Shown here: piece after piece, positions 34,405-48,942 of the stretch
Position numbering within the stretch: the stretch's first letter is position 1
How the letters are laid out: each line of letters begins with the position of its first letter
Source of the DNA: Candidatus Gordonibacter avicola
Lineage (GTDB): Bacteria > Actinomycetota > Coriobacteriia > Coriobacteriales > Eggerthellaceae
Assembly: GCA_019113915.1 (NCBI GenBank)
Contig: DXGM01000012.1
Location: 1-64,000 of the forward strand
Length of the DNA: 64,000 bases
Direction of reading: 5' to 3'
Translations under genes and position numbers: made by a program
The notes under the pieces: generated by a model
The model's database searches: none
What the model saw: only the letters and a program-made list of their open reading frames with translations
Told to the model about the DNA's origin: nothing

Positions 34405-35928
34405 TTACGCCCTCTTCTCTGTGTGGGTTGCTTCGTCGGGGGTGGCGGCTTCTATGGCGTCGAGGAGTTCTTCTCGGGAGCCGATGCCCATTTTGCGGTA
34501 GATATTGTAGGTGTGGGTCTTCACGGTGTGACCGGAGATGCACAGTTTGTTTTGGATGTGTTCGATGCCGCGGCCTTTCGCCAGCAGGAAGAATACCTCG
34601 GTTTCGCGGACGGACAGCCCGGCGTCGCGCGCCACGGCGGCGCAGCGGGCCTTCCAGTGGCCCTCGTGCGGCTCTTCCGACTCAGGTTCGCTCTGCTCCT
34701 CCACGACGGGCTCGCGGGTGGGGGCGAACGTGATGAAGGCAGCCAGCAGCACCACGAGCGCCAGCGCCACGGCCGAAAGCACACCGTAGTCGAGCGCTCC
34801 CGTGGCTGACGGCAGAAGCCCCAGACCAAAGCCCACTGCCATGCCGCCGCTGAGCGCGCTTTGGCTCATACCCACCACATACAGAGGCGAGGCGCCACGC
34901 GAGCGCGCGGTCTGCACCTCAAACGCCACGCTCACGGCCACCAAGAACACGTAGCTCGCAAGCAGAAGCAGGTTGCTGAGCGCATACACCGGGCCCGTGA
35001 ACAGCGCCATCGTCACGAGCGACACCACCAAAAAGGGGAACAGCATGCGCAGCACGTCAATCTGGCGCATGCGATCGGCGAAGCGGCGCATGAACGCCCA
35101 GGCTGCTGCGCCTCCTATCAAGATGAACGCCGCAATACCCGCGAACAATAGCGTGCCGCCGGCAATCTGTGTGATGGAGCCCGCACCCAGGCCAAACACG
35201 ATGCCATACACCACATAGATGACACCAAACGACCAGGACAGCCCCGCGTTACGCTTCGATGTGGCATAGGGAATGCCTTCAATGGGCACTTCGCCCCGTT
35301 CGCCTTCTTCGCCTTCACTCTCGCTCCGGCGCGACTCGGCCACCACCACATACAGCACACCCAAGCTCGCAAGCGCACACAGCGACAAGAAACCCGTGCC
35401 ATACAGCGACGGGAGCAAGTTCACAATAAGGTAAATGAGGCCGCCGCATCCCGCCGACAGCGCCATGGAGCGCGCCGCCGCCGCTTCGTCCAAGCGCGCA
35501 ACCACGGGCAGCCACAGAAACAAAAGACAACACAGCCCCACACCCGACACGGCCCACACTGCGATATCAAACACAGCGGGCAGCGGCTGCCCGAGCGCCA
35601 CATACATCGCTGGCGACGCGCTCGCAATAACCGCAAACACCACCACCAGCACACCCATAACGCGTTTGGTACGCCGACCCGTTACGCCATCGGCTGTTCG
35701 TGCGAGCCACGCGGCCGCTGCACCAAAGCCAATAAAAAACGCGATGCGCAACACCAAGTGATACGCTAGCCGCTCGATGTCGGCATCCAAAAAGGCATTT
35801 CGCATGAGCATGGCGAAGAAGCATGCCCAAAACAAAGAAAAGCCACCAACGAGAACCAACGTGGTGGTAGAAAGATAAGAAACAGGCTCCTGATCTGGTG
35901 CTTTATCAGCACTCAACCTTTTTTCCAT
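34405..35928 (-). CDS. Membrane-embedded LuxR-type transcriptional regulator
   Basis: A 507-residue one-component regulator. About 12 hydrophobic helices span residues ~20-420, resembling an MFS-like sensor. A cytoplasmic C-terminal LuxR/FixJ helix-turn-helix then follows, LSVRETEVFFLLAKGRGIEHIQNKLCISGHTVKTHTYNIYRKMGIGSREELLDAI. This architecture is abundant in Eggerthellaceae, next to reductases of dietary or host compounds. The ATG at 35928 follows GGAG; the frame is open to 36150. It is transcribed divergently from the molybdoenzyme gene with a 202-bp gap containing an inverted repeat, so it likely controls that operon. Confidence 0.88.
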   Translation of the reverse strand: MEKRLSADKAPDQEPVSYLSTTTLVLVGGFSLFWACFFAMLMRNAFLDADIERLAYHLVLRIAFFIGFGAAAAWLARTADGVTGRRTKRVMGVLVVVFAVIASASPAMYVALGQPLPAVFDIAVWAVSGVGLCCLLFLWLPVVARLDEAAAARSMALSAGCGGLIYLIVNLLPSLYGTGFLSLCALASLGVLYVVVAESRRSESEGEEGERGEVPIEGIPYATSKRNAGLSWSFGVIYVVYGIVFGLGAGSITQIAGGTLLFAGIAAFILIGGAAAWAFMRRFADRMRQIDVLRMLFPFLVVSLVTMALFTGPVYALSNLLLLASYVFLVAVSVAFEVQTARSRGASPLYVVGMSQSALSGGMAVGFGLGLLPSATGALDYGVLSAVALALVVLLAAFITFAPTREPVVEEQSEPESEEPHEGHWKARCAAVARDAGLSVRETEVFFLLAKGRGIEHIQNKLCISGHTVKTHTYNIYRKMGIGSREELLDAIEAATPDEATHTEKRA

Positions 35929-36002
35929 AGTGTACTCCGCATCCCCCTCGTGCGTTGCGCCGATGCTTCGCCAGATAAACCAGACGAAACGGCGATGGTG
36001 CC

Positions 36003-36028
36003 CATGATACGCGGTCGATAGTATCGTG
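36003..36028. promoter_or_regulatory. Inverted repeat in the LuxR-molybdoenzyme intergenic region
   Basis: CATGATAC (36003-36010) and GTATCGTG (36021-36028) are inverted copies with one mismatch and a 10-bp spacer. The location between divergent genes makes this a candidate LuxR operator. Confidence 0.4.
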
Positions 36029-36130
36029 GCAAGAAAACGCAACGGGTGCAAGAAACCCGTGAGGCCCAGCAAACGGGCTGCACGGCTGCACATCGGGGCG
36101 TCGGACGAGAAGGAACAAGGAGGCTTGAGC

Positions 36131-38365
36131 ATGGGAGAAGAGTATCGCACCGTGAATCACGAGAAGCCGTTTTCCTACGAGGAAGGCGACTTGCACGTAA
36201 CGCGCGGTTGTGCGTGGACGGGCCCGGGCTGCCACTTGGGTTGCGGCGTGGTCATGTACACGAACGACGAGGGTAAGCTCGTCAAGTGCGAAGGCGACCC
36301 GGAGGATCCGTGGACGAATGGTCGTCTGTGCATGCGCTGCCTGGACGTGCCCGAGGTGACGCACCACAAGGAGCGCCTGCAGTACCCCATGAAGCGTGCT
36401 CGCGAGGACCGCGGCAAGGACAAATGGGAGCGCATCAGCTGGGACGAGGCCTACGACCTCATCACCGAGAAGTTCATGGATATGAAAGAAAAGTACGGCG
36501 CCGAGTCCGTGGTGTTTGCTCAGGGTACCGGCCGCGACATCGCTGCCTATATCACGCGTCTGTGCTGGTCCTTCGGCAGCCCCAACTACACGGGCTTCCT
36601 GTCCGGTCAGTGCTGCTACCTGCCGCGTATCGCTGGCATGGCTGCCACCACCGGCGCGCCGTGGATTCCCGACGCCGCCCAGCAGTTCCCCGAGCGCTAC
36701 GACCATCCGGACTACGAGGTGCCCGAGGCCATGTTCATCTGGGGTAACTACCCGCTGAAGTCCAACATCGAAGGCTTCTATGGTCACTGGGTGATCGACC
36801 TCATGAAGCGCGGCATGAAGATTGTCACCGTTGACCCGAAGGTCACCTGGCTGGCCACGAAGTCCGAACTGCACCTGCGCGTGCGCCCCGGCACCGACGC
36901 GGCGCTGGCACTCGGCATGATGAAGATCATCATCGACGAGAACCTCTACGACCACGAGTTCGTTGACAACTGGTGCTACGGCTTCGACGAGCTGGCTGCA
37001 CGCGCCGCTGAGTTCGACGTGAAGCGCGTGAGCGAGATCACCTGGGTGCCCGAGGAAAAGATCATCGCCGCCGCCCGTATGCTGGGCAATGCCAAGAACT
37101 CCACGCTGCAGTGGGGCGTGGCCGTGGACATGACCCGCGAAGCTATGCCGGCTGGTCAGGCCATCCTTGCTCTCTGGGAGATCACGGGCAACATGGAGCG
37201 CCCGGGCGGCATGATTGTGGCCCCCGAAATCCTTTCCGTGGCCGGCGGCTGGGGCCGCGAGGTGCTGGGCGAGGAACAGGAAGCCAAGCGTATCGGCATC
37301 AAGGACTACCCGCTGTTCAACTTCGGTTTCGCTGTGTCTCAGCCCGACGAGACGGTGAAGACCATCGAAACTGGCGTGCCGTACGAGATTCACGGCGCAT
37401 GGCTGCAAACCACGAACCCCATCGCCTGCATGGGTGCCGACCCGCAGCGTTTGTACAAGGCCCTGAACAAGCTCGACTTCATCGTGGTTGTCGACCTGTT
37501 CAAGACGCCCACCATCGCCGCTCTGGCCGACGTGGTGCTGCCTGCCTGCACGTTCCCCGAGCGCAACGGCATCGCATTCGTGTCCGGCGCGCAGCGCGGT
37601 TCCACCATCAACAAGGTGACCGACGTGGGCGAGTGCCGCTCCGACATGCAAATCAACCTTGAGCTGGGCAAGCGCTGGAACCCCGAGGCATGGCCGTGGG
37701 ACAACGTGGACGACATGTTCACCGACATGCTGAAGCCCACCGAGATGTCCTTCGAGGAACTACAGAGCGTGGCACCGGCGTATCAGCCCATCGAGTACTA
37801 TCGCTACAAGACGGGCAAGCTGCGCAAGGACGGTCAGCCCGGCTTCAACACGCCGACCGGCCGCATTGAGCTTTGGAGCAACTTCTACAACCAGGCCGGC
37901 CTTGACCCGCTGCCCTACTTCGAAGAGCCCGAGCCCGGCCCCGGTTCCACCCCCGAGCTCATGGACGAGTTCCCGTTGGTTATGACGAGCGGCGCCCGCA
38001 CCTGGGGTATGTTCCACTCCGAGCATCGTCAGATCGAGCGTATGCGTCACTATCGCCCCTGGCCTCTCATGGAGATTCACCCCGAGACGGCCGCCAAGTA
38101 CGGCATCAAGGACGGCGACTGGGTGTGGATGGAAGGCCCCATGGGTCGCGCCAAGCGCAAGGCGAAGCTCACGCCCATCATGGATCGCCGCATCGTGTCG
38201 TGTGACCACGGCTGGTGGTTCCCCGAGGGCGACCCGGAGAAGTTCTACGACGTGTTTGACCTGAACATCAACAACACCATTCCGTGGATCCCGGGCAAGA
38301 GCGGTTTCGGTTCCAACTACAAGAGCTTCATCTGCAAGGTCTACAAAGTGGAAGAGGGGGAATAA
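36131..38365 (+). CDS. Molybdopterin oxidoreductase, DMSO reductase family catalytic subunit
   Basis: A 744-residue bis-MGD enzyme. The N-terminal FeS site has Cys27, Cys34, Cys38 and Cys67 (CAWTGPGCHLGC, then LCMRC). The C-x6-C spacing between the first two is unusual compared with the common C-x2/3-C. The Mo-MGD domains continue through QGTGRDIAAYITRLCWSFGSPN, KIVTVDPKVTWLATKSELHLRVRPGTDAALALGMMKIIIDENLYDHEFVDNW and the C-terminal dinucleotide-binding domain (FNTPTGRIELWSNFYNQAG). No Tat signal is present, so it is cytoplasmic. It resembles the acetylene hydratase/transhydroxylase/catechol dehydroxylase branch, but the substrate cannot be read. The ATG at 36131 follows AAGGAGG. The ferredoxin gene follows directly. 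Confidence 0.88.
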   Translation: MGEEYRTVNHEKPFSYEEGDLHVTRGCAWTGPGCHLGCGVVMYTNDEGKLVKCEGDPEDPWTNGRLCMRCLDVPEVTHHKERLQYPMKRAREDRGKDKWERISWDEAYDLITEKFMDMKEKYGAESVVFAQGTGRDIAAYITRLCWSFGSPNYTGFLSGQCCYLPRIAGMAATTGAPWIPDAAQQFPERYDHPDYEVPEAMFIWGNYPLKSNIEGFYGHWVIDLMKRGMKIVTVDPKVTWLATKSELHLRVRPGTDAALALGMMKIIIDENLYDHEFVDNWCYGFDELAARAAEFDVKRVSEITWVPEEKIIAAARMLGNAKNSTLQWGVAVDMTREAMPAGQAILALWEITGNMERPGGMIVAPEILSVAGGWGREVLGEEQEAKRIGIKDYPLFNFGFAVSQPDETVKTIETGVPYEIHGAWLQTTNPIACMGADPQRLYKALNKLDFIVVVDLFKTPTIAALADVVLPACTFPERNGIAFVSGAQRGSTINKVTDVGECRSDMQINLELGKRWNPEAWPWDNVDDMFTDMLKPTEMSFEELQSVAPAYQPIEYYRYKTGKLRKDGQPGFNTPTGRIELWSNFYNQAGLDPLPYFEEPEPGPGSTPELMDEFPLVMTSGARTWGMFHSEHRQIERMRHYRPWPLMEIHPETAAKYGIKDGDWVWMEGPMGRAKRKAKLTPIMDRRIVSCDHGWWFPEGDPEKFYDVFDLNINNTIPWIPGKSGFGSNYKSFICKVYKVEEGE

Positions 38366-38367
38366 CC

Positions 38368-38709
38368 ATGGCGAAGTACGGAATCCTGGTTGATGCGCAG
38401 TGGTGCTCCGGTTGCCATAGCTGCGAAGTGGCCTGCCAGATGGAGCATGGCCTGCCGGTTGGCGAGACGGGCGTCAAAGTGGTAAAGATTGGCCCATGGG
38501 TTATTGGTGATGAGGCTGACGAGAACTGGCAGTTCAGCTATTTGCCCATTCCCACGAAGCAGTGCGACACCTGTGCCGCTCGCCGCGCTGCGGGCAAGGT
38601 GCCCACCTGCGTGCAGCACTGCCAGTCGATGTGCCTGGAGTTCGGCCCGCTGGACGAGCTGTCCGCAAAGATGGATGAAAAGCAGAAGACGCTGTTCGTC
38701 GTAGCATAA
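38368..38709 (+). CDS. Ferredoxin-like electron-transfer subunit of the molybdoenzyme
   Basis: A 113-residue iron-sulfur protein. Cys13, 16, 19 and 23 (CSGCHSCEVAC) and Cys66, 69, 81, 85 and 89 (CDTC...CVQHCQSMC) can bind two [4Fe-4S] clusters. It is shorter than the usual four-cluster DmsB-type subunits, and no signal peptide is present. The gene lies 2 bp after the molybdoenzyme gene and is certainly co-transcribed. It should pass electrons between the molybdenum subunit and an unknown donor or acceptor. Confidence 0.9.
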   Translation: MAKYGILVDAQWCSGCHSCEVACQMEHGLPVGETGVKVVKIGPWVIGDEADENWQFSYLPIPTKQCDTCAARRAAGKVPTCVQHCQSMCLEFGPLDELSAKMDEKQKTLFVVA

Positions 38710-38776: not shown

Positions 38777-39307
38777 ATGCACAGCAAGAAGTACTACATC
38801 GTGTACGGTTTGTTCTTCTCGTTTATTGTGGCGGCGGTTTTGTGCCTGTGCCTCACCATCATGCAGGGCGTGCCGCATATTGACCCGGTGTTTTACGGTA
38901 TGTCATTCGCCGTGGCCTTTGTGGTGTCGTTCGTGGTAACGGCCGTGATTCCGCTGGCGCGCATTGCGGCGGCGTGCGCCGTGTACTACGACGCGAAGCC
39001 GGGGTCGGTGGCATTTCGCCTGATCCAGAACGTGTTTTTCAGCACGCTTATCATGTTCTTCCTGGGCATTGTGATGACGGCATTCATGACGGGCATCGGG
39101 GATGTACCGGCGATGAACGCTATGACGGGTGAAATGATTGCTACGAACGTGTTCGATAGGTTTGTAAGCCTGTGCCTGCAGTTCTGGCCGACCATCGTCA
39201 TTGTGGCTTTCCTGTCCGACCCCGCAGCGGGCGGCTTGGCGAAGCTGCTGGTGAAAGAGCCGGAGCTTGATGCCGCGCGCAAGCCGTCGGAGGCCCCGAC
39301 CGCATGA
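38777..39307 (+). CDS. Four-helix membrane protein of the molybdoenzyme locus
   Basis: A 176-residue protein of unknown function with four predicted helices (~8-28, ~40-68, ~90-115, ~135-160). The two halves look loosely similar (hydrophobic pair with Phe/Val-rich start), reminiscent of a DUF2798-type duplication, but this is weak. There are no haem-ligand His pairs as in DmsC or NrfD subunits, so it is probably not a quinol-oxidising anchor. The ATG at 38777 follows AAGGAGCGG; the frame is open to 38732. The gene end overlaps the next gene by 4 bp (ATGA). Confidence 0.72.
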   Translation: MHSKKYYIVYGLFFSFIVAAVLCLCLTIMQGVPHIDPVFYGMSFAVAFVVSFVVTAVIPLARIAAACAVYYDAKPGSVAFRLIQNVFFSTLIMFFLGIVMTAFMTGIGDVPAMNAMTGEMIATNVFDRFVSLCLQFWPTIVIVAFLSDPAAGGLAKLLVKEPELDAARKPSEAPTA

Positions 39308-39669
39308 GCCCTGAGCACGACAACGTGGATGCCGTAACGGGTGCCACCGTTGATGCGGTGACGGGCGCCACCAGGTGGGAGGGCGAGGCGAAGGTTGATG
39401 GCGAAGGCTCGGGTGAGATGTCCCGTGGCGAAGCCGAGATGGGCGCTGAGCCCTGTGGCGAAGCTGAACCTGGTGCTGAGTCCGGTGGTGAAGAGGCTGG
39501 CGAAGATGCTCCCGCCCGCACCCGCAGCATCCAGGAGGTTGTGGACGCTGTAACGGGCGCCACGTGGAGCACGCGCAACCGCATCATGGAGGACCTGTTC
39601 CGCGAGGACCTCAACGCCGGAGCCTCCAACCTCCCCACCTTCGCACCCCCCGGCACCCCCGTGCGATAG
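39304..39669 (+). CDS. Small acidic protein with three DAVTGAT flavinylation-like motifs
   Basis: A 121-residue protein of no recognised family. The heptapeptide DAVTGAT occurs at residues 9-15, 17-23 and 81-87. This is the core of the sequence in which ApbE attaches FMN to a threonine in NqrC/RnfG-type proteins (D-x-x-S/T-G-A-T-x-x-S/T). Only the third copy, DAVTGATWST, has the downstream Ser/Thr. Between the motifs lies a Gly/Glu/Ala-rich acidic linker (~25-72). No signal peptide, membrane helix or complete FMN-binding domain is present. Start overlaps the membrane protein gene by 4 bp, so the two are translationally coupled. Covalent flavin is an inference. Confidence 0.75.
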   Translation: MSPEHDNVDAVTGATVDAVTGATRWEGEAKVDGEGSGEMSRGEAEMGAEPCGEAEPGAESGGEEAGEDAPARTRSIQEVVDAVTGATWSTRNRIMEDLFREDLNAGASNLPTFAPPGTPVR

Positions 39670-39670
39670 C

Positions 39671-39717
39671 AAAAAGCCCCCGTCATCTGGCCGAGACCAG
39701 GTCAGCGACGGGGGCTT
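39671..39717. terminator. Bidirectional terminator between the flavinylation-motif gene and the TetR gene
   Basis: AAAAAGCCCCCGTC pairs with GACGGGGGCTTT around a CTGG...CCAG inner hairpin. The T-run serves the plus strand and the A-run the minus strand. It overlaps the last codons of the convergent TetR gene. Confidence 0.88.
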
Positions 39718-40394
39718 TGTTGTTTCTGGGCCTTTTCGGGCGTATCGCAATAAAGATCAATGGTTGCTTGGATCATCCGATGCCCGTACGAGAAGAAGGG
39801 GTTGAGCTCGTCCTGCATCATAAAAGATTGCGTACGGGTGTAATGGTAAAGAACGCGTCCGAAAATACCCATCGTATGGTATTCCGTCAAGAATTTGATC
39901 ACCACTTCGGGCATCTCGCGATCTCCCAGCATGATGCGTATGTCGGCTTCTATGGCGGGGAAGTAGAGAAGCGTAATATAGTCAAAAAACTCGAAGTACG
40001 TTGCTCCCATAAATATGCGCCGATAGTATTCGCGGTTTTGCTGAAAGTAGCGGCCCCAATATTTGAAGTAAATCATTTGATGGATGAAATTGTCTCCATC
40101 CTTGACCTGAACGTAAAAAGGTAACTCAGGGAAGGGGTCGTGCAGATCCTCTTGGGGGTAGGCGAGTTTAGCCGAGGAAAATTCAGGCCGCGACACAATA
40201 GATGACATGGCTTTGCGAAAAATCCACTGCACCAGATTGTCGGTTGTCTCAAAATAGTAGTAGAACGTCTTCCGATCGATGCCCATCCGTCGAGCGATGT
40301 CGGTGACCGTTACCCGATGAGGCGCGTCGCCTTCGACGACGAGAGAGGCAAATGTCTTCGCTATCTCAAATCTCATATTGATCTGGCGAATCAT
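39702..40394 (-). CDS. TetR-family transcriptional regulator
   Basis: A 230-residue regulator with N-terminal HTH VTVTDIARRMGIDRKTFYYYFETTDNLVQWIFRKAM and a diverged ligand-binding domain, rich in Tyr and Phe (FDYITLLYFPA). ATG 40394 is chosen because GGGAG lies five bases upstream; ATG 40406 and GTG 40412 are alternatives. It is divergent from the FAD oxidoreductase operon across 415 bp that contain a tandem 21-bp repeat, suggesting local control. Confidence 0.87.
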   Translation of the reverse strand: MIRQINMRFEIAKTFASLVVEGDAPHRVTVTDIARRMGIDRKTFYYYFETTDNLVQWIFRKAMSSIVSRPEFSSAKLAYPQEDLHDPFPELPFYVQVKDGDNFIHQMIYFKYWGRYFQQNREYYRRIFMGATYFEFFDYITLLYFPAIEADIRIMLGDREMPEVVIKFLTEYHTMGIFGRVLYHYTRTQSFMMQDELNPFFSYGHRMIQATIDLYCDTPEKAQKQQSPRR

Positions 40395-40581
40395 CGAATC
40401 TCCCATCAGCACAATTCAGACATGAACCGCCATGTCTTCCGTTTAAGCGGATGGTTCTGTTTATGCTTTGCAACAGAGAGACGCACTATCCCCTTGCCCC
40501 TTGATCACAGATGGTACCAACTTGCAAATGCCCATTTGGCGGACGATGGATAAGCCACCCCACTCTTTTCGAAGTGGGGAA

Positions 40582-40623
40582 AAGCATAGCTGAAGGCTTG
40601 ACAAGCGTAGCTGAGGTTTTGAC
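40582..40623. promoter_or_regulatory. Tandem 21-bp repeat, candidate TetR operator
   Basis: AAGCATAGCTGAAGGCTTGAC (40582-40602) is followed immediately by AAGCGTAGCTGAGGTTTTGAC (40603-40623), with four mismatches. A 21-bp period places both copies on the same face of the helix. It lies in the 415-bp gap between the TetR gene and the oxidoreductase operon. The rest of that gap has no credible gene. Confidence 0.5.
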
Positions 40624-40809
40624 CTGCTAAAAACACTGCTCAGTTGTTGCTCCTGAGTTCTCGGTGGGGTGTATGTTCCTCATTACCCCATTTCAGACAA
40701 AGTGTCCGTAACACTCCACTCGTGGCGCGTGGTAAAAAGTAAGTGCATCGATGCGATTCATACAGGAATTCCGACCAACGACCCAATCCTTAGTATCAAG
40801 GAGGGAACC

Positions 40810-42423
40810 ATGTCAGGAACCTATGATTTCGTGGTCATCGGAGGCGGACACAACGGACTGCTTACCACGGCCTATCTGGCAAAAGCTGGATTCAGTGTCT
40901 GCTGTCTCGAGGCCAATGACGAGTTCGGAGGCGGAACGCGCTCTGGCGAAGTGTGTGCGCCAGGCTATATCAGCGACTTGGGCGGCATGATTCACAGCAT
41001 GATTGCCCGCACACCCATCGTACGTGATGACGAACTCGGACTTATTTCTAAGTATGGTTTGGAATACGTCAACACCGATGCGCTGTTCTGTTCCGTTTTC
41101 CCCGACAATACCGTGTTGTTGATGGATCCGGATGTTGACAAAGCATGCGAGAACATTGCGCAGTTCTCGGAAAAAGATGCCATTGCCTATCGCGAATTCC
41201 ATGACTACATGGAAAAGATGATGGCGGTTGCTCATGTGGGAGCACAGTCTCCTCCGCCGCCTTGGGGAGCTATGCACAGTGCCATGTATATGAGCCCCGA
41301 GGGTCGAGAGTTCCAGCGCGTGCTGAACTTGAGCGCCCAGCAACTCGTCGAGGAATGGTTCGAAAGCGAAGAGGTGCGCACCACGTTCACTCGTTGGTGT
41401 ACCGAGATGATGATCGATCCGCGTGAGATCGGTACCGCTACGCTTCTGTACTTCACCGTCAATATTCACAAGCCTGATCTGTATGTGATCAATGGTAAGG
41501 TGAACCCCGATCATCCGGGTGCTCCCTTCCCGAAGGGCGGCAGCAAAAGCTTTATTGACGCGCTCATGCAGTGCTGTCGCGATGATGGCGCCGAGTTGTT
41601 CGCCAACAAATATGTTGCCGACATCGTGGTCGAGAACGGCGAGGCTCGCCAGGTTGTCACAAAAGATGGTGATATCTTTACGGCTAACAATGCGGTTATC
41701 AGCTGTATTAATGTTAAGCAGATCTATGAGATGGTGGCAGACGATGTGCCTGCTGATGAACTGGAAGCCATCCGCCGCATCAAGCATGCCGATTTTGGCG
41801 CGCTCAACCAGTCCTTCGCTTTGAAGAAGATTCCTGAATTTAAGGCTGGCCCAGAAGTGTTGAAGGCGTTCTGCATCGAGGCTGCCCCGCGCGAGAAAGA
41901 GTACTTGCAAATCTTCAGCAACTACACCCTCGGCGAATTCAGTCCCAAGCTGCCGCTCATCACCATTCCTTCCTTGCTTGATGACACACGTTGTCCTGAG
42001 GGACACAGCGTCGTGAACATCTACCAGTACGCTCCCTACAACCTTTGGGGCGACCCGCAGAACTGGGTTACCCACAAAGAAGAGCTTGAGCGTCAGGTGT
42101 GGGAGTTCTTTAAGGACATGACCACTAACATCACCGATGACGACATCATTGGCCACTGGAGCCTGACACCGCTTGAGTATGAACAGTGGGATCCGGCCAT
42201 GGTACACGGCGATATCGGTCAGATTGGCTTGCAGCCCAGCCAGATGTACGACATGCGTCCGTTGGTTGGCAAGGGCCATGAGTATCACGGTGCCATTGAA
42301 AACCTGTATTTCCTTGGCTGCTGCTCGCATCCTGGAGCAGGTATTGCGGCATCGGCTCGCGCAGGCGTTCAAAAGGTGCTCGAAGACTTCGGTGTCGACT
42401 TCCGCGACGTTGTGAGGAAGTAA
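40810..42423 (+). CDS. FAD-dependent oxidoreductase, phytoene desaturase-related (paralogue 1)
   Basis: A 537-residue flavoprotein of the COG1233/PYROXD2-like group. The N-terminal dinucleotide motif is YDFVVIGGGHNGLLTTAYLAKAGFSVCCLEANDEFGGGTRSGE; GGGHNG is typical of this branch. The C-terminal MRPLVGKGHEYHGAIENLYFLGCCSHPGAGIAASARAGVQ is the second FAD-contact region. No signal peptide is seen. It is about two-thirds identical by eye to the next gene, but carries an extra ~20-residue loop (LYVINGKVNPDHPGA) near residue 225. Carotenoid synthesis is unlikely because no phytoene synthase is nearby. Context with two transporters suggests catabolic oxidation of an imported compound. The ATG at 40810 follows AAGGAGGG. 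Confidence 0.85.
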   Translation: MSGTYDFVVIGGGHNGLLTTAYLAKAGFSVCCLEANDEFGGGTRSGEVCAPGYISDLGGMIHSMIARTPIVRDDELGLISKYGLEYVNTDALFCSVFPDNTVLLMDPDVDKACENIAQFSEKDAIAYREFHDYMEKMMAVAHVGAQSPPPPWGAMHSAMYMSPEGREFQRVLNLSAQQLVEEWFESEEVRTTFTRWCTEMMIDPREIGTATLLYFTVNIHKPDLYVINGKVNPDHPGAPFPKGGSKSFIDALMQCCRDDGAELFANKYVADIVVENGEARQVVTKDGDIFTANNAVISCINVKQIYEMVADDVPADELEAIRRIKHADFGALNQSFALKKIPEFKAGPEVLKAFCIEAAPREKEYLQIFSNYTLGEFSPKLPLITIPSLLDDTRCPEGHSVVNIYQYAPYNLWGDPQNWVTHKEELERQVWEFFKDMTTNITDDDIIGHWSLTPLEYEQWDPAMVHGDIGQIGLQPSQMYDMRPLVGKGHEYHGAIENLYFLGCCSHPGAGIAASARAGVQKVLEDFGVDFRDVVRK

Positions 42424-42434
42424 AGAGTACGCTC

Positions 42435-42459
42435 GCCGGGCGGTCACACGCCGCCCGGC
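42435..42459. terminator. GC-rich hairpin between the two oxidoreductase genes
   Basis: GCCGGGCGG-TCACACG-CCGCCCGGC forms a 9-bp stem. A T-rich stretch (CATTTCTTCTC) follows, but not a pure T-run. It may reduce read-through or stabilise the upstream mRNA. Confidence 0.5.
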
Positions 42460-42511
42460 AGCATTTCTTCTCACGCGATTCAGCTTATCACTCTACTGCA
42501 AAGGAGAAGCC

Positions 42512-44086
42512 ATGTCTTCTACCTATGATTTTGTCGTGTTGGGTGGCGGCCATAATGGCTTGATCACCACGGCTTATCTGGCAAAAGCCGGTTTTAGCGT
42601 GTGCTGTCTGGAAGCCAATGAGGAATGCGGCGGATCCACTCGGTCAGGTGAAGTGTGCGCTCCAGGATACGTTTCAGATCTTGGCGGCATGGTTCACAAC
42701 ATGATATCGGCCACCCCTATCGTTACCGAAGATGAGTTGGGATTGTTTTCGAAATACGGCTTCGAATACGCGCATGCTAAAGCCTTGTTCTGCTCTATTT
42801 TCCCCGATCAGACAAGCCTTATAATGCACCACGACATTGACAAAGCCTGCGAGAACATCGCGCGATTCTCGAAGCATGATGCCGAGGTATATCCAAAATT
42901 TCACGAATACATGGTGAACATGCTTGCCGTGGCTGGCATCGGCTCCCAAAGCGCTCCACCGCCCTATGGCGCCATGATGAATGTTATGTATATGAGTCCT
43001 GAGGGGCGCGAATTTCAGCGTGTCCTCAACTCGTCTGCTCAGCAGATAGTGGAAGAGTGGTTTGAGAGTGAGCAGGTGCGTGTCACGTTCACCCGTTGGT
43101 GTACCGAGATGATGATCGACCCACGCGCCATTGGCACGGCCACGCTATTGTACTTCACCGGACGCGTGCATAAGCCCACCTATGCGCCGCCGTTCCCGAA
43201 GGGCGGAAGCCAAGCTTTTGTTCATGCGCTCGAGAGTTGTTGCAAGGACAACGGTGCAGACGTGTTTACTAACGCGTGGATTGACAACATTATCGTCGAA
43301 GGTGGCGAAGTGAAAGGCGTGCGCACCAAAGCGGGCGAGGAGTATCTGGCCAATAATGCCGTAGTGAGCACCATCAACATTAAAGACGTTTACGACATGC
43401 TAGGCGATGATGCTCCTGCCGAAGAGGCCCGTTATGTCCATCGCTTGAAGCAAGCCGATTTCGCGGCACTCAATCAATCGTTTGCCCTGAGCAAGATCCC
43501 CGAGTTCAAAGCTGGCCCCGAGGTCCTTGATGCCTACTGTATTGAGTTTGCGCCCGAGGAGAAAGAGTACCTCGAGACGTTCAGTAACTACCGGCTTGGT
43601 GAGTTCAATCCGCGGCTGCCTCTGGTCACTATTCCGTCGCTTTGGGATCCGACGCGTTGCCCTGAGGGACACAGCGTTGTCAACCTATACAGCTATGCCC
43701 CCTATCGCCTGTGGGGCGACGAAAAGAACTGGGAAACGCACGGCGATGAGCTTAAGCAGCAAGTGTGGGAGTTCTTCAAGTCTCAAACCACGAACATCAC
43801 CGATGACGACATCGTAGGACACTGGGGACTCACGCCGCTGGAGTACGAGCAATGGAACCCTGCCATGAAAGAGGGTGACCTGGGCATGATTGGCTTGCAG
43901 CCTAGTCAAATGTATGACATGCGTCCCTTCCCGGGTAAAGGTCATACCTATCATGGCGAGATTGAGAACCTGTATTTTGTTGGTTGCTGTGGACATCCGG
44001 GTGGCGGCATAGCCGCTGGTGCGCGACCGGGCGCTCTCAAAATCCTTGAGGATTATGGCGTCGATTTCCGGTCAGTAGTTAAGTAA
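42512..44086 (+). CDS. FAD-dependent oxidoreductase, phytoene desaturase-related (paralogue 2)
   Basis: A 524-residue flavoprotein with N-terminal YDFVVLGGGHNGLITTAYLAKAGFSVCCLEANEECGGSTRSGE and C-terminal MRPFPGKGHTYHGEIENLYFVGCCGHPGGGIAAGARPGAL. It is colinear with the preceding gene product except for a missing ~13-20 residue loop (KPTYAPPFPKGG here). A recent tandem duplication with divergence is likely. The two may form a heterodimer or act on related substrates. AAAGGAG precedes the ATG. Confidence 0.85.
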   Translation: MSSTYDFVVLGGGHNGLITTAYLAKAGFSVCCLEANEECGGSTRSGEVCAPGYVSDLGGMVHNMISATPIVTEDELGLFSKYGFEYAHAKALFCSIFPDQTSLIMHHDIDKACENIARFSKHDAEVYPKFHEYMVNMLAVAGIGSQSAPPPYGAMMNVMYMSPEGREFQRVLNSSAQQIVEEWFESEQVRVTFTRWCTEMMIDPRAIGTATLLYFTGRVHKPTYAPPFPKGGSQAFVHALESCCKDNGADVFTNAWIDNIIVEGGEVKGVRTKAGEEYLANNAVVSTINIKDVYDMLGDDAPAEEARYVHRLKQADFAALNQSFALSKIPEFKAGPEVLDAYCIEFAPEEKEYLETFSNYRLGEFNPRLPLVTIPSLWDPTRCPEGHSVVNLYSYAPYRLWGDEKNWETHGDELKQQVWEFFKSQTTNITDDDIVGHWGLTPLEYEQWNPAMKEGDLGMIGLQPSQMYDMRPFPGKGHTYHGEIENLYFVGCCGHPGGGIAAGARPGALKILEDYGVDFRSVVK

Positions 44087-44116
44087 GTACGGAAAACACG
44101 CGAAAAGGAGCGACGT

Positions 44117-44404
44117 ATGGTTCGAAAAGCAGTTAAACGGCCTTCCATCATAGCGAAAACAGAAGACGGTTCGCCCATGGTGGAGGTGTTCTCTATGAGG
44201 ACCGAGGGTGACCGACTCATCATGGATTGCAAGGCTCTCGACAGCATGCGCATGGATGTGGTTGTCACAACAGAGGATATCGCAAAAGGCATGCCGGTTG
44301 TCAAGGAAAGCAAAGCGGCCATTATCGCGTTTGCGAAGCAAATCCCCGCAGCTATCCGCAGACAGAAGAAAGCGGAGAAGGGGGCGCGAGAAGATCGCTC
44401 CTGA
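44117..44404 (+). CDS. Orphan 95-residue protein in the FAD oxidoreductase operon
   Basis: Not recognised. It is soluble and basic, with a predicted beta-rich first half (SIIAKTEDGSPMVEVFSMRTEGDRLIMDCKALDSMRMDVVVTTEDIAKGM) and a helical, Lys/Arg-rich C-terminus. The central section has the look of a small-molecule or peptide-binding beta domain, but this is only an impression. The start follows AAAAGGAGCG, 30 bp after the second oxidoreductase gene, so it is likely translated as part of the operon. Confidence 0.75.
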   Translation: MVRKAVKRPSIIAKTEDGSPMVEVFSMRTEGDRLIMDCKALDSMRMDVVVTTEDIAKGMPVVKESKAAIIAFAKQIPAAIRRQKKAEKGAREDRS

Positions 44405-44489
44405 ATGCCCTGTCGGGAGAGCCGGCGCTTGAGGGGTTAGTGCTGGCTTCCTCCTTTACGAGGCGTCAACTACAACGTAAGGGGACGTT

Positions 44490-45881
44490 ATGAAGAACTT
44501 CTCTTCGAAGAATTTGATTATTGTCGTGTTGGCGATAGTTATTGGCGCCATCATCGGACAGCTGGCCCCTCCTGAGGGACTAACTGAAGTCGCTATGGCG
44601 TACCTGGGGATTTTTGTGGGAATGCTCATTCTCCTTATCACGGGTGCATTGCCGTCTTGGGCGGCTTGTCTCGGCGCGCTTGCGCTCATGGTTGTATTCA
44701 AAGTGGGTACCATCCCCGAAATATTCAGCGCATTTGCCGGTAGCATTGTGTGGCTGATGATAGCCGTGTTCGCTTTTTCGGCGGCGGTTATCAAAAGTGG
44801 ACTTATGACGCGTATGGCGCTGAAACTGCTGACTGTGTTTCCGAAGAACTATCGTGGTCAGGTACTTTCTCTCATGACGGTTGGTACGGTTATCAGCCCA
44901 CTTATTCCCAGTTCGAACGCTAAAGTTAACCTACTTATTCCCATGGCAACGGAGATGACGAAAGAGGTAGGTTACGAGAAGAAAAGCAAGCCCGCCTTGG
45001 GATTGTTCACTGCTTGCTTCATGCCGCCCTATGTTGGTTCGCACGCGTTTCTTACGGGCAACGCGAATGTGCCTTTCATGATTGGCATCATGGGTCTTTC
45101 GTTTTCGTGGATTGGTTGGTTCCAACTCACGTGGCTGTGGCTCATCGTTGTGCTCATAGGAACGTATATTTTTTGCATGACCTACTGCAAGCCGAAGGAG
45201 AAACTCAACCTGCCTGACGAGTACTTCAGCGACAAGCTGAAAGAATTAGGCAAGATGTCGTTCAATGAAAAAGTGGCAGCCATTGTGGTAGTCATCTGTT
45301 TGGTTTTGTGGATTGCCCAGCCGTTGCATGGTGTGGATGCGGGCATCATTTGCTTGATTGGCGCAATTGTACTTGCCCTGTTCGGCGTTTTGGAGACGAA
45401 GGATTTCCGGACGCAGGTGCCGTGGGATCTCATCATGTTCATCGGCGCACTGATTGGCGGCGCGGGTCTCATGAGTACCGTCGGCGTGAGCACATGGCTG
45501 GCAGGTATTATGGGTCCGGTGCTATCACCGTTGGTGAACAACATCTGGTTGTTTGTCCCGGCGCTTTGCATTATCACTTGGATCATGCGAGCCGTTATCC
45601 CTGCGAACGGTGTGGTGCTGGTTATTTTGTTCGCCATCTTCTCGCCACTGCTTGAGTCGGCAGGTATTTCGCCATTCGTACTGTGCTTTGTTGTGTACGT
45701 GGTAAGCAATATTTGGTTCAACTCGTTCCAAAACCCCTTTGTCATTGGCATTTTGGGAGTTGCTGGCAACGAGTACGTCACCATCAAAGAGTTCAAGAAA
45801 TCGGCTTATGCCTACATGCTCATATCGCTGGTGGCCATGATGGGGAGCATTCCTCTGTGGAGCCTCATGGGATTCTGCTAG
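44490..45881 (+). CDS. SLC13/DASS-family anion (dicarboxylate) transporter
   Basis: A 463-residue membrane protein with about 12 helices. The family hallmarks are paired re-entrant regions, seen as TVGTVISPLIPSSNAKVNLLIPMA in the first half and MRAVIPANGVVLVILFAIFSPL in the second. DASS carriers import di- or tricarboxylates or sulfate with Na+, but members of the wider ion transporter superfamily move other anions. Its position after the FAD oxidoreductases suggests it imports their substrate. A terminator follows at 45907. Confidence 0.82.
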   Translation: MKNFSSKNLIIVVLAIVIGAIIGQLAPPEGLTEVAMAYLGIFVGMLILLITGALPSWAACLGALALMVVFKVGTIPEIFSAFAGSIVWLMIAVFAFSAAVIKSGLMTRMALKLLTVFPKNYRGQVLSLMTVGTVISPLIPSSNAKVNLLIPMATEMTKEVGYEKKSKPALGLFTACFMPPYVGSHAFLTGNANVPFMIGIMGLSFSWIGWFQLTWLWLIVVLIGTYIFCMTYCKPKEKLNLPDEYFSDKLKELGKMSFNEKVAAIVVVICLVLWIAQPLHGVDAGIICLIGAIVLALFGVLETKDFRTQVPWDLIMFIGALIGGAGLMSTVGVSTWLAGIMGPVLSPLVNNIWLFVPALCIITWIMRAVIPANGVVLVILFAIFSPLLESAGISPFVLCFVVYVVSNIWFNSFQNPFVIGILGVAGNEYVTIKEFKKSAYAYMLISLVAMMGSIPLWSLMGFC

Positions 45882-45906
45882 CACCTCACTAACAGATACG
45901 TGATCG

Positions 45907-45935
45907 AGGGGTTCGGACTAGTTCCGAACCCCTTT
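45907..45935 (+). terminator. Hairpin between the two transporter genes
   Basis: AGGGGTTCGGA-CTAGT-TCCGAACCCCT is an 11-bp perfect stem followed by TTC. It sits 17 bp before the ribosome-binding region of the next gene, so it may act as an attenuator between the two transporter genes. Confidence 0.7.
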
Positions 45936-45952
45936 CGAAAGGGTGAACTAAC

Positions 45953-47413
45953 ATGAGCCTACCCTTTATCATGCTTGTTGCCTATATCGTTGTCACCGTT
46001 CTTATTGGTATCGCAGTTGCCGTGCGTGGTGCGCGTCGAGAAAAAGCCTCTTCGGCGCAATTCCTCACGGCGCAAGGTAACCTTGCCTGGTTTATGGTCA
46101 TCCCGCTGCTGTTCGCCGAGATGATGGCTGGTGCAGCAACTATCGGCAAGGCGGCCACGGGATACACTACTGGTTTATCTGCGGTGTGGGTGAACTGGGG
46201 CATGTCCATTGGCATGATTGTTTTCATCGTGTTTGCGGCGCGCTTTTATCGTGCCATGAACAGGAAATATGGCATTCTTTCGGTGCCTGAGGCATTCAAA
46301 TTCATGTTTGATCAAAGATGTCGCACCATCATGTTGATAATCATTGTGGTGGTGTATTGCTTCCTGTATTCGTCGCAGCCCATTAGTGCGGCGGCCCTTA
46401 TAGCACCTATGATAGGTCTGGATGTGACCCTTGTTGCGTGGGTTGTGTCGGCGCTGTTTATTGTTGTTACCCTGCTGGGTGGAATGAAGGGCCTTGCCCT
46501 TATGAATATCGTCCACATGGTGGTCATGTATGCGGGGCTTATCGCGGCAACATCGGGGGGCCTTGATATGGTGGGAGGTCTTGGCGCTCTGTATGAGCAG
46601 TTGCCAGCGAGTTATTTTGATCTGCTTCAGCCTGATATCTGGTCGACGCTTGCTAACGCTTTGGGTATTGGTATCAGCTTTCTGGCGGCAGCCACCATGG
46701 TGACAGCCACCATTTCTGCACGGTCGCCGCGCGATATGGCTATCGGTGCGTGGGGTGCTGCTGCCATTGTCATACCGTTTGCCACACTGCCAGCTATTAT
46801 TGGTATGTGCGCGGCAATTGCCTTACCTGGCATTGATCCCAATACGGCGTTGTTTGCTATGTCAAATGCCCAAGGACCTGCGATATCGGGTGTGGTGTCG
46901 ATGGCTATTGCGGCGGCAATCTGGTCATCGGCTCCGGCAGCGTTGCTGTTTATCTCGAATACGTTGACGCAAGATCTTTATGCAGTTGTTCGACCACAGA
47001 GCACCGATTGCCAGCGTCTTGTGTTTTCGCGGCTCATGGTGGTGCTGCTGGGTATTGTGGCCACCTGGCTTGGTTTGAATGCGTCATCCATTCTGGGGCA
47101 ATTGTATGCAGCGTTCCAGATACGCTCGGTCGTGGGTATTGTGTTGCTAGTTGCTATGGTGTGGCCACGCGTGACAAGTGGGGCGGCGTTCTGGTCGATG
47201 CTGGGCGGCGGGCTAGTTGCCGCGGTTTGGCATTTCGCCGCAAACCCGTTTGGTGTTGAGCCGCTGTGGCCCGCCTGTGCTGTAACCATTGTTGTGTTGG
47301 TGGGTATTACACTTGCCAGCAAGGAGAAAGTGTCCGAAGGATATAAGCGCTATCGAGTTGCGCGTGACGAACTCGCTGCGAGCGAGGGACGGAGCGTTAA
47401 AAAGACGGCCTAA
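45953..47413 (+). CDS. Sodium:solute symporter (SSF family)
   Basis: A 486-residue membrane protein with about 13 helices. It belongs to the SSF/LeuT-fold family (relatives of PanF, PutP). Family features include FLTAQGNLAWFMVIPLLFAEMMAGAATIGKAATGYTTGLSAVWVNWG at the N-terminus and LFISNTLTQDLYAVVRPQ in the middle. Substrate is unknown. It is the last gene of the probable catabolic operon starting at 40810, although the hairpin at 45907 could give partial termination before it. The ribosome-binding site is AAAGGG. Confidence 0.88.
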   Translation: MSLPFIMLVAYIVVTVLIGIAVAVRGARREKASSAQFLTAQGNLAWFMVIPLLFAEMMAGAATIGKAATGYTTGLSAVWVNWGMSIGMIVFIVFAARFYRAMNRKYGILSVPEAFKFMFDQRCRTIMLIIIVVVYCFLYSSQPISAAALIAPMIGLDVTLVAWVVSALFIVVTLLGGMKGLALMNIVHMVVMYAGLIAATSGGLDMVGGLGALYEQLPASYFDLLQPDIWSTLANALGIGISFLAAATMVTATISARSPRDMAIGAWGAAAIVIPFATLPAIIGMCAAIALPGIDPNTALFAMSNAQGPAISGVVSMAIAAAIWSSAPAALLFISNTLTQDLYAVVRPQSTDCQRLVFSRLMVVLLGIVATWLGLNASSILGQLYAAFQIRSVVGIVLLVAMVWPRVTSGAAFWSMLGGGLVAAVWHFAANPFGVEPLWPACAVTIVVLVGITLASKEKVSEGYKRYRVARDELAASEGRSVKKTA

Positions 47414-47453
47414 GCTGTGCGCTCTATGTTTTCGTTAAGGCCAGGAGGAGCGC

Positions 47454-47723
47454 TTACCAGGCGCTCCTCTGGTGGATGAGGCCGAGTAGGTAGACGGTGT
47501 CTTCGTCCTCGTGATATTCGTACACTATCAGAAATGGCGATACCACCAGTTTTCGTACGGTGTCGCCGTACTGCTCAACAAGGGAGCGAGGTAAGTTCGG
47601 CGACCCGAGTTCGGGAAATCCTGAAAGCAGGTCTACGCGACGCTTTATTTCGTTGCGCTTACTTTCGAAACGAATTTGCGCGACATCCGCAACGAAACCT
47701 TCGGTATAAATAAGTTCAGGCAT
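47454..47723 (-). CDS. ParE/RelE-type toxin
   Basis: An 89-residue protein of the RelE/ParE fold: an N-terminal helical pair (ELIYTEGFVADVAQIRFESKRNEIKRRVDLLSGFPELGS) and a beta-sheet end (VRKLVVSPFLIVYEYHEDEDTVYLLGLIHQRSAW). The R-K-L-V...F-L-I-V-Y pattern is typical. It overlaps the antitoxin gene by 8 bp. Whether it poisons gyrase (ParE-like) or ribosome-bound mRNA (RelE-like) cannot be decided by eye. Confidence 0.85.
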   Translation of the reverse strand: MPELIYTEGFVADVAQIRFESKRNEIKRRVDLLSGFPELGSPNLPRSLVEQYGDTVRKLVVSPFLIVYEYHEDEDTVYLLGLIHQRSAW

Positions 47724-48006
47724 GGCTTGCGGCTCGCTTCTCTATTTCAGCAAAGGCGCTTTCGGTGCCACGGTAAAGCCGCCCTGCTTCTATGTCGTGA
47801 CGTCCGCGCTCGATAACAGTTGCTATCCGTGCCTCGTAGGCTGCGTCTTCGGCTACTTGGCGGAGTTTTTGTTCGAATACTTCGTCGGAGCAGAATACGA
47901 AGGCGCCGCGGCCGTTTTCGGTGATGCGGACGATGCCTTCACGTGCAGCTTTCTTGACTTCGCCCTGCTGCTTTTGCAGTGCCGTGACGGGAAAAATAGC
48001 TTCCAT
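47716..48006 (-). CDS. Phd/YefM-type antitoxin
   Basis: A 96-residue protein beginning IFPVTALQKQQGEVKKAAREGIVRITENGRGAFVFCSDEVFEQKLRQ. The first ~50 residues match the Phd/YefM DNA-binding fold, where VRITENGRGAFVF is the characteristic beta hairpin. The charged C-terminal helix should neutralise the toxin of the next gene. The ATG at 48006 follows AAAGGAGTCACC. It probably autoregulates the pair. Confidence 0.85.
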   Translation of the reverse strand: MEAIFPVTALQKQQGEVKKAAREGIVRITENGRGAFVFCSDEVFEQKLRQVAEDAAYEARIATVIERGRHDIEAGRLYRGTESAFAEIEKRAASHA

Positions 48007-48144: not shown

Positions 48145-48870
48145 TTACTCCTTGATGACCGCCTCGGGGTGATCGCGGTCGATGATGGTGTGTTGGGTGA
48201 TGGTGGCGTTGAAGTAGCGTTGCACGAGAGTGGCGAACTCATCCAGCGCGGCGCGGAGGTCGTCTGTGCGGGCGGGGTCGACGTTCTCTATGATGAGGAA
48301 TGCGTTCGCCGAATCGTCAGTGAGTGCGGTGCGCTTGCCGTCGCGCCAGTTCCAGCAGCGGCAGACGGCACCCACGTTGTCGCAGTAGCAAAGCTCACCG
48401 GGCAGGGTGGGGTCTTCGTCCTCTTCGCCGAGGGGCAGAAACGCGTCGCCGCCTTCGGTGATGCCCAGCCTGAGGTCGCCGTCAAGCGCATCCAGGTCCT
48501 CGCCGCCCACGGGGAAGGCGTACTTGAGCGAAATGGCGTTGTACACGTCCACCGACGGCGTGATGGAGCCCACAGGGTTGCCCTTCAGTACGCGCTTGAG
48601 CAGGTTCTCCACTGAGCTGCGCGCACCCTTCTTCGTCTTGAACTGCTGGTAGGCCTCGCGCCAGGCGCGCACGGGCTCGTTTTCGGAGATGGTGTTGCTG
48701 GTGAGATAGCTGTTCGCGTGCTCGTTCGCCTCGTGCAAAAGCTTTGCGATGGCGGCCGCGTCGTCGGGCGGTATCGCGCTCGCTGGCTTCATGCCGCGCG
48801 CCACCATGATGCCAATTGAGGCGTGGGGGAATAGCTCCCAAAATGAATCGTCCGCAATGAATTTCTGCAT
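48145..48870 (-). CDS. B3/B4 tRNA-binding domain protein (PheT-like editing domain)
   Basis: A 241-residue protein of the stand-alone B3/4 family, related to the editing domain of phenylalanyl-tRNA synthetase beta. The middle (NLLKRVLKGNPVGSITPSVDVYNAISLKYAFPVGGEDLDAL, then LRLGITEGGDAFLPLG) is the conserved core. The C-terminal FLIIENVDPARTDDLRAALDEFATLVQRYF also fits. Freestanding B3/B4 proteins may clear mischarged tRNA or bind amino acids. The ATG at 48870 has AAGGAGG upstream. Only 18 bases before the ATG lies a terminator-like hairpin with a T-run, so expression may depend on attenuation. Confidence 0.85.
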   Translation of the reverse strand: MQKFIADDSFWELFPHASIGIMVARGMKPASAIPPDDAAAIAKLLHEANEHANSYLTSNTISENEPVRAWREAYQQFKTKKGARSSVENLLKRVLKGNPVGSITPSVDVYNAISLKYAFPVGGEDLDALDGDLRLGITEGGDAFLPLGEEDEDPTLPGELCYCDNVGAVCRCWNWRDGKRTALTDDSANAFLIIENVDPARTDDLRAALDEFATLVQRYFNATITQHTIIDRDHPEAVIKE

Positions 48871-48888
48871 GGTGTCCTCCTTACAAAA

Positions 48889-48942
48889 AAGCATGCGACC
48901 TCCCTCGTCTTCTCAGGCCTAACGATGAGGGTGCGCATGCTT
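48889..48942 (-). promoter_or_regulatory. Terminator-like hairpin in the leader of the B3/B4 gene
   Basis: Read on the minus strand, AAGCATGCG pairs with CGCATGCTT, extended by ACC/GGT across a bulged C, and the stem is followed by TTTTTTG. The ribosome-binding site AAGGAGG starts about three bases after the T-run. No other minus-strand gene lies upstream (dinB runs the opposite way), so the hairpin can only act on this gene. It looks like an attenuator of a leader RNA. No T-box or known riboswitch consensus was recognised. The 428-bp gap up to dinB otherwise holds the LexA-type box at 49146. Confidence 0.65.

Follow-up and report, generated by a model that had tools for sequence, protein, structure and literature searches.

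Flavin transfer by ApbE has been described mainly for FMN_bind proteins (PF04205) such as NqrC, RnfG, PplA and PceC. Other ApbE substrates, the folded exported domains DUF2271 and DUF3570, lie beside orphan apbE genes, lack FMN_bind and were inferred from genome context (PMC8238504). The same survey, the main one on flavinylation, left out proteins without signal peptides and acknowledged orphan apbE genomes without a recognised substrate as an open problem (PMC8238504). Cytosolic ApbE is known in Klebsiella, and cytosolic fumarate reductases of Klebsiella and trypanosomatids are flavinylated at a site within the enzyme (PMC12052999). Furthermore, seven residues suffice for ApbE and tags work at termini, as in the engineered Flavin-tag, a 7-residue terminal peptide; an A to V change in the motif about halves flavinylation in Klebsiella (PMC12052999). 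The Gordonibacter catechol dehydroxylases Dodh and Eadh1/2 combine a leaderless bis-MGD subunit with a small 4Fe-4S protein and a LuxR regulator (PMC7028382, PMC12771579), and their nearest characterised relative is acetylene hydratase (PMC7028382). LuxR-type regulators with a membrane domain have been found beside Coriobacteriia dehydroxylase genes (PMC9734109, PMC12771579). In the open-licence literature searched, the electron supply of cytosolic catechol-dehydroxylase-type molybdoenzymes of gut Coriobacteriia is not established.

Here we describe an operon in the window, the whole 64-kb stretch of DNA analysed, that shares features with each of these systems. Its last gene encodes a small protein which, like NqrC, RnfG, PplA and PceC, has D-x-x-T-G-A-T followed by a helix and a partial Pfam match. 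Unlike them, it lacks about two thirds of the domain and the export signal, and such small proteins (~60–121 residues) are coupled to a cytosolic molybdoenzyme. Both the fumarate reductases and the small protein pair a leaderless cytosolic ApbE with a (here predicted) cytosolic target, but here the motif is carried by a tiny protein of its own, one that has no flavoprotein domain. As in the Flavin-tag, a short motif sits at a terminus or in a disordered region and would need no flavin-binding fold; the small proteins, however, are natural, conserved, operon-encoded and sometimes tandem. The DUF2271 and DUF3570 substrates likewise lack FMN_bind and were recognised by context, but are folded and exported. 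With Dodh and Eadh1/2 the operon shares the bis-MGD subunit, the 4Fe-4S protein and the LuxR regulator; its membrane protein of four helices and the protein with the flavin motifs are additional.

A four-gene operon and its small motif protein

The first gene encodes a catalytic bis-MGD molybdoenzyme subunit of 744 residues (36131–38365, + strand; Pfam Molybdopterin and Molydop_binding) with no signal peptide. Its start at 36131 is consistent with relatives, acetylene hydratase 2e7z is the closest relative of solved structure (E 4.5e-87), and identity with the other operons is 86–95%. A DmsB-like, ferredoxin-like subunit of 113 residues follows (38368–38709, + strand), with two Cys clusters (2 × [4Fe-4S]), Fer4_11 and Fer4_2 matches near the cut-off and 80–92% identity in relatives. 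The third product is a membrane protein of 176 residues from an unnamed family (38777–39307, + strand), with four predicted long helices and 72–91% identity in relatives. It gave no match in Pfam or NCBIfam, its predicted model was helical with moderate confidence (pLDDT 69), and fold searches for it and for the small protein gave no significant match. A LuxR-type regulator with a membrane domain and a GerE match is encoded divergently (34405–36150, − strand, start uncertain). A leaderless subunit nearest acetylene hydratase with a small 4Fe-4S partner agrees with the definition of Gordonibacter-type catechol dehydroxylases in PMC7028382, for which this enzyme is a candidate. Identity with the 21-dehydroxylation cluster Elen_2451–2454 was rejected on account of the FdhD and SPFH genes present there; the absence of the operon from E. 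lenta (G117) is further evidence against it.

The fourth gene (39304–39669, + strand) encodes the small protein of 121 residues, the first member of what we call family I. Its ATG overlaps the stop codon of the membrane protein gene in a shared ATGA, which bears out the 4-bp overlap reported in the initial annotation. The heptapeptide DAVTGAT was found, as that annotation had it, at residues 9–15 (39328–39348, + strand), 17–23 (39352–39372, + strand; an eight-residue tandem unit with the first copy) and 81–87 (39544–39564, + strand), the third copy lying inside the conserved core VVDAVTGATWSTRNRIMEDLF (residues 79–99; 39538–39600, + strand). Across all six frames of the window, D-x-x-[ST]-G-A-[ST] matched nothing but these three copies, and 200,000 shuffles of the small protein gave three motifs in 0 cases and two motifs in 1. 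At least six codon changes separate the copies, every one of them synonymous (chance ~7e-4, random changes being synonymous at a fraction of 0.30). Since the copies differ by synonymous changes only, selection has maintained the peptide and not the DNA. No signal peptide or membrane helix was visible in the sequence, which argues against the extracytoplasmic location of FMN_bind proteins. The small protein had also been described as lacking an FMN_bind domain; the complete fold (~77 positions) is indeed absent, but Pfam FMN_bind matches residues 66–91 above its cut-off (23.3 bits, cut-off 22) over profile positions 39–66 of 77, i.e. the motif and the helix after it. In two other family I members tested, FMN_bind fell below the cut-off.

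The host shares its genus with Gordonibacter pamelaeae, and the same operon was found in 13 of 138 Eggerthellaceae species and in two other Coriobacteriia, G040 (another family) and the MAG L034. The initial annotation is supported in placing a motif of the flavinylation type on a cytoplasmic protein encoded in a molybdoenzyme operon. The small protein is ~40–52% identical between the window and relatives. All 15 intact copies keep motif 3 and the helix after it (DAVTGATWxxRNxIMxxxF; with variants, DA[VI]xG[AV]TWxxRNxIMxxxF, where D, A, G, T, W, R, N, I, M and F are invariant while their codons vary), and pN/pS over this core is ~0.3. The acceptor Thr of the ApbE-substrate motif, Thr87 in the window, is invariant in 15/15, while its codon varies; two relatives read DAVAGAT and one DAVTGVT. 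Two expectations of the initial annotation failed: relatives carry one motif rather than three, apart from G196, where a second motif, DASSGAT, stands N-terminally (DTASGAA in its sister), and the Thr at +3 after copy 3, thought to provide an important Ser/Thr context, is not conserved in relatives, among which E or A occur. The N-terminal motif pair is lineage-specific. Conservation runs past the motif through W, RN, IM and F to a PAFxPPG tail. The predicted model of a one-motif relative places the motif at the junction of two helices (pLDDT ~93), an arrangement that fits a flavin site as well as it fits a simple adaptor. In G004, of the same genus, the small gene ends just before the motif; because the other three genes are intact while the motif part is lost, the small protein is dispensable there. 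An apparent deletion reaching into the downstream convergent gene removed this part (L051/L106). Distant membrane-protein paralogues (24–38% identity) had no motif protein alongside.

ApbE and a second set of motif proteins

The window's genome encodes one ApbE (4.9e-81), with no signal peptide by eye and apparently cytosolic, so that enzyme and candidate substrate fall, by sequence, in the same compartment. It also encodes two apparently exported FMN_bind proteins, both with a lipobox by eye and one with a twin-arginine signal. The initial annotation had named loss of the third Thr and absence of ApbE as outcomes that would speak against flavinylation; since the Thr is kept in 15/15 copies and ApbE is present, neither occurred. 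ApbE was present in 13/13 operon genomes versus 82/125 others (p 0.006), and a leaderless ApbE clade in 12/13 versus 46/125 (p 1e-4), shared ancestry being ignored in both tests. G304, outside this clade, carries another ApbE without a visible signal. Leaders were read by eye in the operon genomes other than G408 and G409, and each genome read has at least one ApbE without a visible leader. Among FMN_bind-less Eggerthellaceae genomes, ApbE occurred in 5/5 with the operon versus 13/54 without (p 0.0017, shared ancestry ignored; p 0.006 minus a 56%-complete genome). These five come from five genera, and G040 likewise has ApbE and the operon but no FMN_bind; family II, described below, is present in only three of the 13 FMN_bind-less genomes with ApbE and no operon.

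Genomes were scanned at the DNA level with a degenerate pattern for D[A/G/S/T/R]x[ST]GAT, which does not capture motifs that end in Ser or have a different residue at position 2. In three genomes (G003, G304 and G358), every plausible in-frame match to D[AGST]x[ST]GAT fell within the small proteins. The scan of G325 gave no motif besides its DAVTGVT copy, and that of G040 gave one further motif, in a 218-aa ORF. In G026 (ApbE, no FMN_bind) a small motif protein was looked for and not found. G020, of the same genus as G304, lacks the operon, ApbE and FMN_bind altogether.

The same scan uncovered a second, unrelated set of small multi-motif proteins, family II, of ~60–190 residues and ending DAxTGA[TS]PGxxxACxxLG...GIKPPG. 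Examples are G000:C43 ~58242–58500 (L225 8242–8500, − strand), L189, L190, L191, L192 and L194–L210. Family II occurs in 17/138 Eggerthellaceae species, 16 of them with ApbE (p 0.01, partly biased by seeds taken from ApbE-bearing genomes). Homology with family I was considered and rejected: profile comparison aligned 13 motif columns only (probability 54%). The G025 member (L191 5477–6043) contains the tandem run IDATTGAT-VHATTGAT-VDAMTGAT-VDATSGAT with heavy synonymous divergence; its eight-residue unit is the one also seen in the window's tandem pair. At the loci whose neighbours were read, the family II gene usually comes after one for an MFS transporter, within catechol-dehydroxylase-like clusters that also encode LuxR regulators, a molybdoenzyme, a 4Fe-4S protein and often an amidohydrolase. 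These clusters resemble the ellagic-acid cluster of PMC12771579. Three genomes of different genera, G304, G330 and G373, have a leaderless apbE within the family II cluster (chance ~0.01, with the distance cut-off chosen afterwards). Leaderless apbE genes in molybdoenzyme/LuxR/MFS clusters were seen in three genera at L216 8791–9738, L219 1–592 and L224 16081–16923. Additionally, some family II members (L192, L196, L203, L204) have N-terminal CxxCxxCxxC clusters beside the flavin motifs, possibly Fe-S or metal sites.

Candidate roles of the small protein

Because seven residues suffice for ApbE, terminal tags are labelled and cytosolic ApbE is known, we propose covalent FMN on Thr87 and optionally on Thr15 and Thr23. 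Judged from sequence, the small protein is rather likely to be a domainless cytosolic ApbE substrate that carries covalent FMN and serves the molybdoenzyme as an electron carrier, probably a minimal flavin-bearing one inside the cell. The leaderless ApbE would move FMN from FAD onto Thr87 of the conserved DAVTGATW core, and in the window's species Thr15 and Thr23 in the N-terminal tags may take further FMN. The flexible flavin-bearing protein, if redox-active in the complex, would carry electrons between the [4Fe-4S] subunit and a donor located in the cytosol or the membrane, its tethered FMN working as a two-to-one-electron switch that could feed or drain the ferredoxin subunit. Motif residues invariant despite codon variation, the conserved operon and ApbE co-occurrence point to this role, as do the few other canonical motifs in the scanned FMN_bind-less operon genomes and an unrelated family II with the same motif, up to four in tandem, beside leaderless apbE. 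On the other side stand the survival of the other three genes without the motif part in G004, the DAVAGAT and DAVTGVT variants, and the 13 FMN_bind-less genomes that have ApbE without the operon. The conserved Trp, RN and IM near the motif may form a binding helix unrelated to flavin, and the ApbE of the window's genome may serve the two exported FMN_bind proteins. The interpretation in the initial annotation is partly supported: the motif, ApbE and the conserved Thr speak for it, but neither conservation of three motifs nor importance of the distal Ser/Thr is supported.

The small protein might instead be an unmodified adaptor, with a conserved helix-loop-helix through which the membrane protein holds on to the molybdoenzyme/ferredoxin pair, and with a GAT that is only a helix cap resembling an ApbE site. 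Conservation running past the motif, the modelled position between two helices and a gene that overlaps or closely adjoins the membrane gene all agree with an adaptor, but we consider it unlikely: it leaves unexplained the link to a leaderless ApbE with nearly no other substrates, the additional copies of the motif, whose codons differ only synonymously, and an unrelated family II with only the motif in common. A flavinylated protein that is no carrier for this molybdoenzyme, but delivers or stores FMN or recruits or titrates ApbE for the maturation of other flavoproteins, would suit several terminal tags that look like a loading platform and a genome with exported FMN_bind proteins and a single leaderless ApbE; the strict molybdoenzyme-operon linkage in five genomes without any FMN_bind protein makes it quite improbable. 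A remnant of a larger FMN_bind protein, as the initial annotation had also allowed, would account for the above-cut-off partial Pfam match and the truncated G004 copy, but is very improbable given the same short architecture in 15 genomes, purifying selection on the core and no longer version found.

The electron-carrier reading can be extended to both families. We hold it as a tentative idea, nearly as probable as its opposite, that cytosolic domainless flavin carriers, substrates of leaderless orphan ApbE, arose on two or more occasions from sequences with no common origin and multiplied into tandem octapeptide tags, and that they donate electrons to acetylene-hydratase/catechol-dehydroxylase-type molybdoenzymes of gut Coriobacteriia, possibly also those of the urolithin-forming clusters. 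No mention of such small cytosolic flavin-motif proteins was found in the open-licence literature (without supplements), and small flavin-bearing carriers inside the cell have hardly been described so far. If the small proteins carry FMN, they offer a testable answer both to electron supply and to the substrates of orphan ApbE; flavinylation would then reach cytosolic proteins that lack any fold for binding flavin, and the naturally occurring tandem arrays would be flavin tags ready for use.

Region downstream of the operon

In the window, ~8 kb (39702–48006) separates the operon from the gene at 48145–48894. In G. pamelaeae that gene comes immediately after the operon, which suggests an insertion in the window. 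The region contains a TetR-type regulator, two transporters, a small toxin-antitoxin-like pair and two CrtO/CrtI-like FAD oxidoreductases. The two oxidoreductases (40813–44086) are adjacent paralogues, CrtO-like and below family cut-offs.
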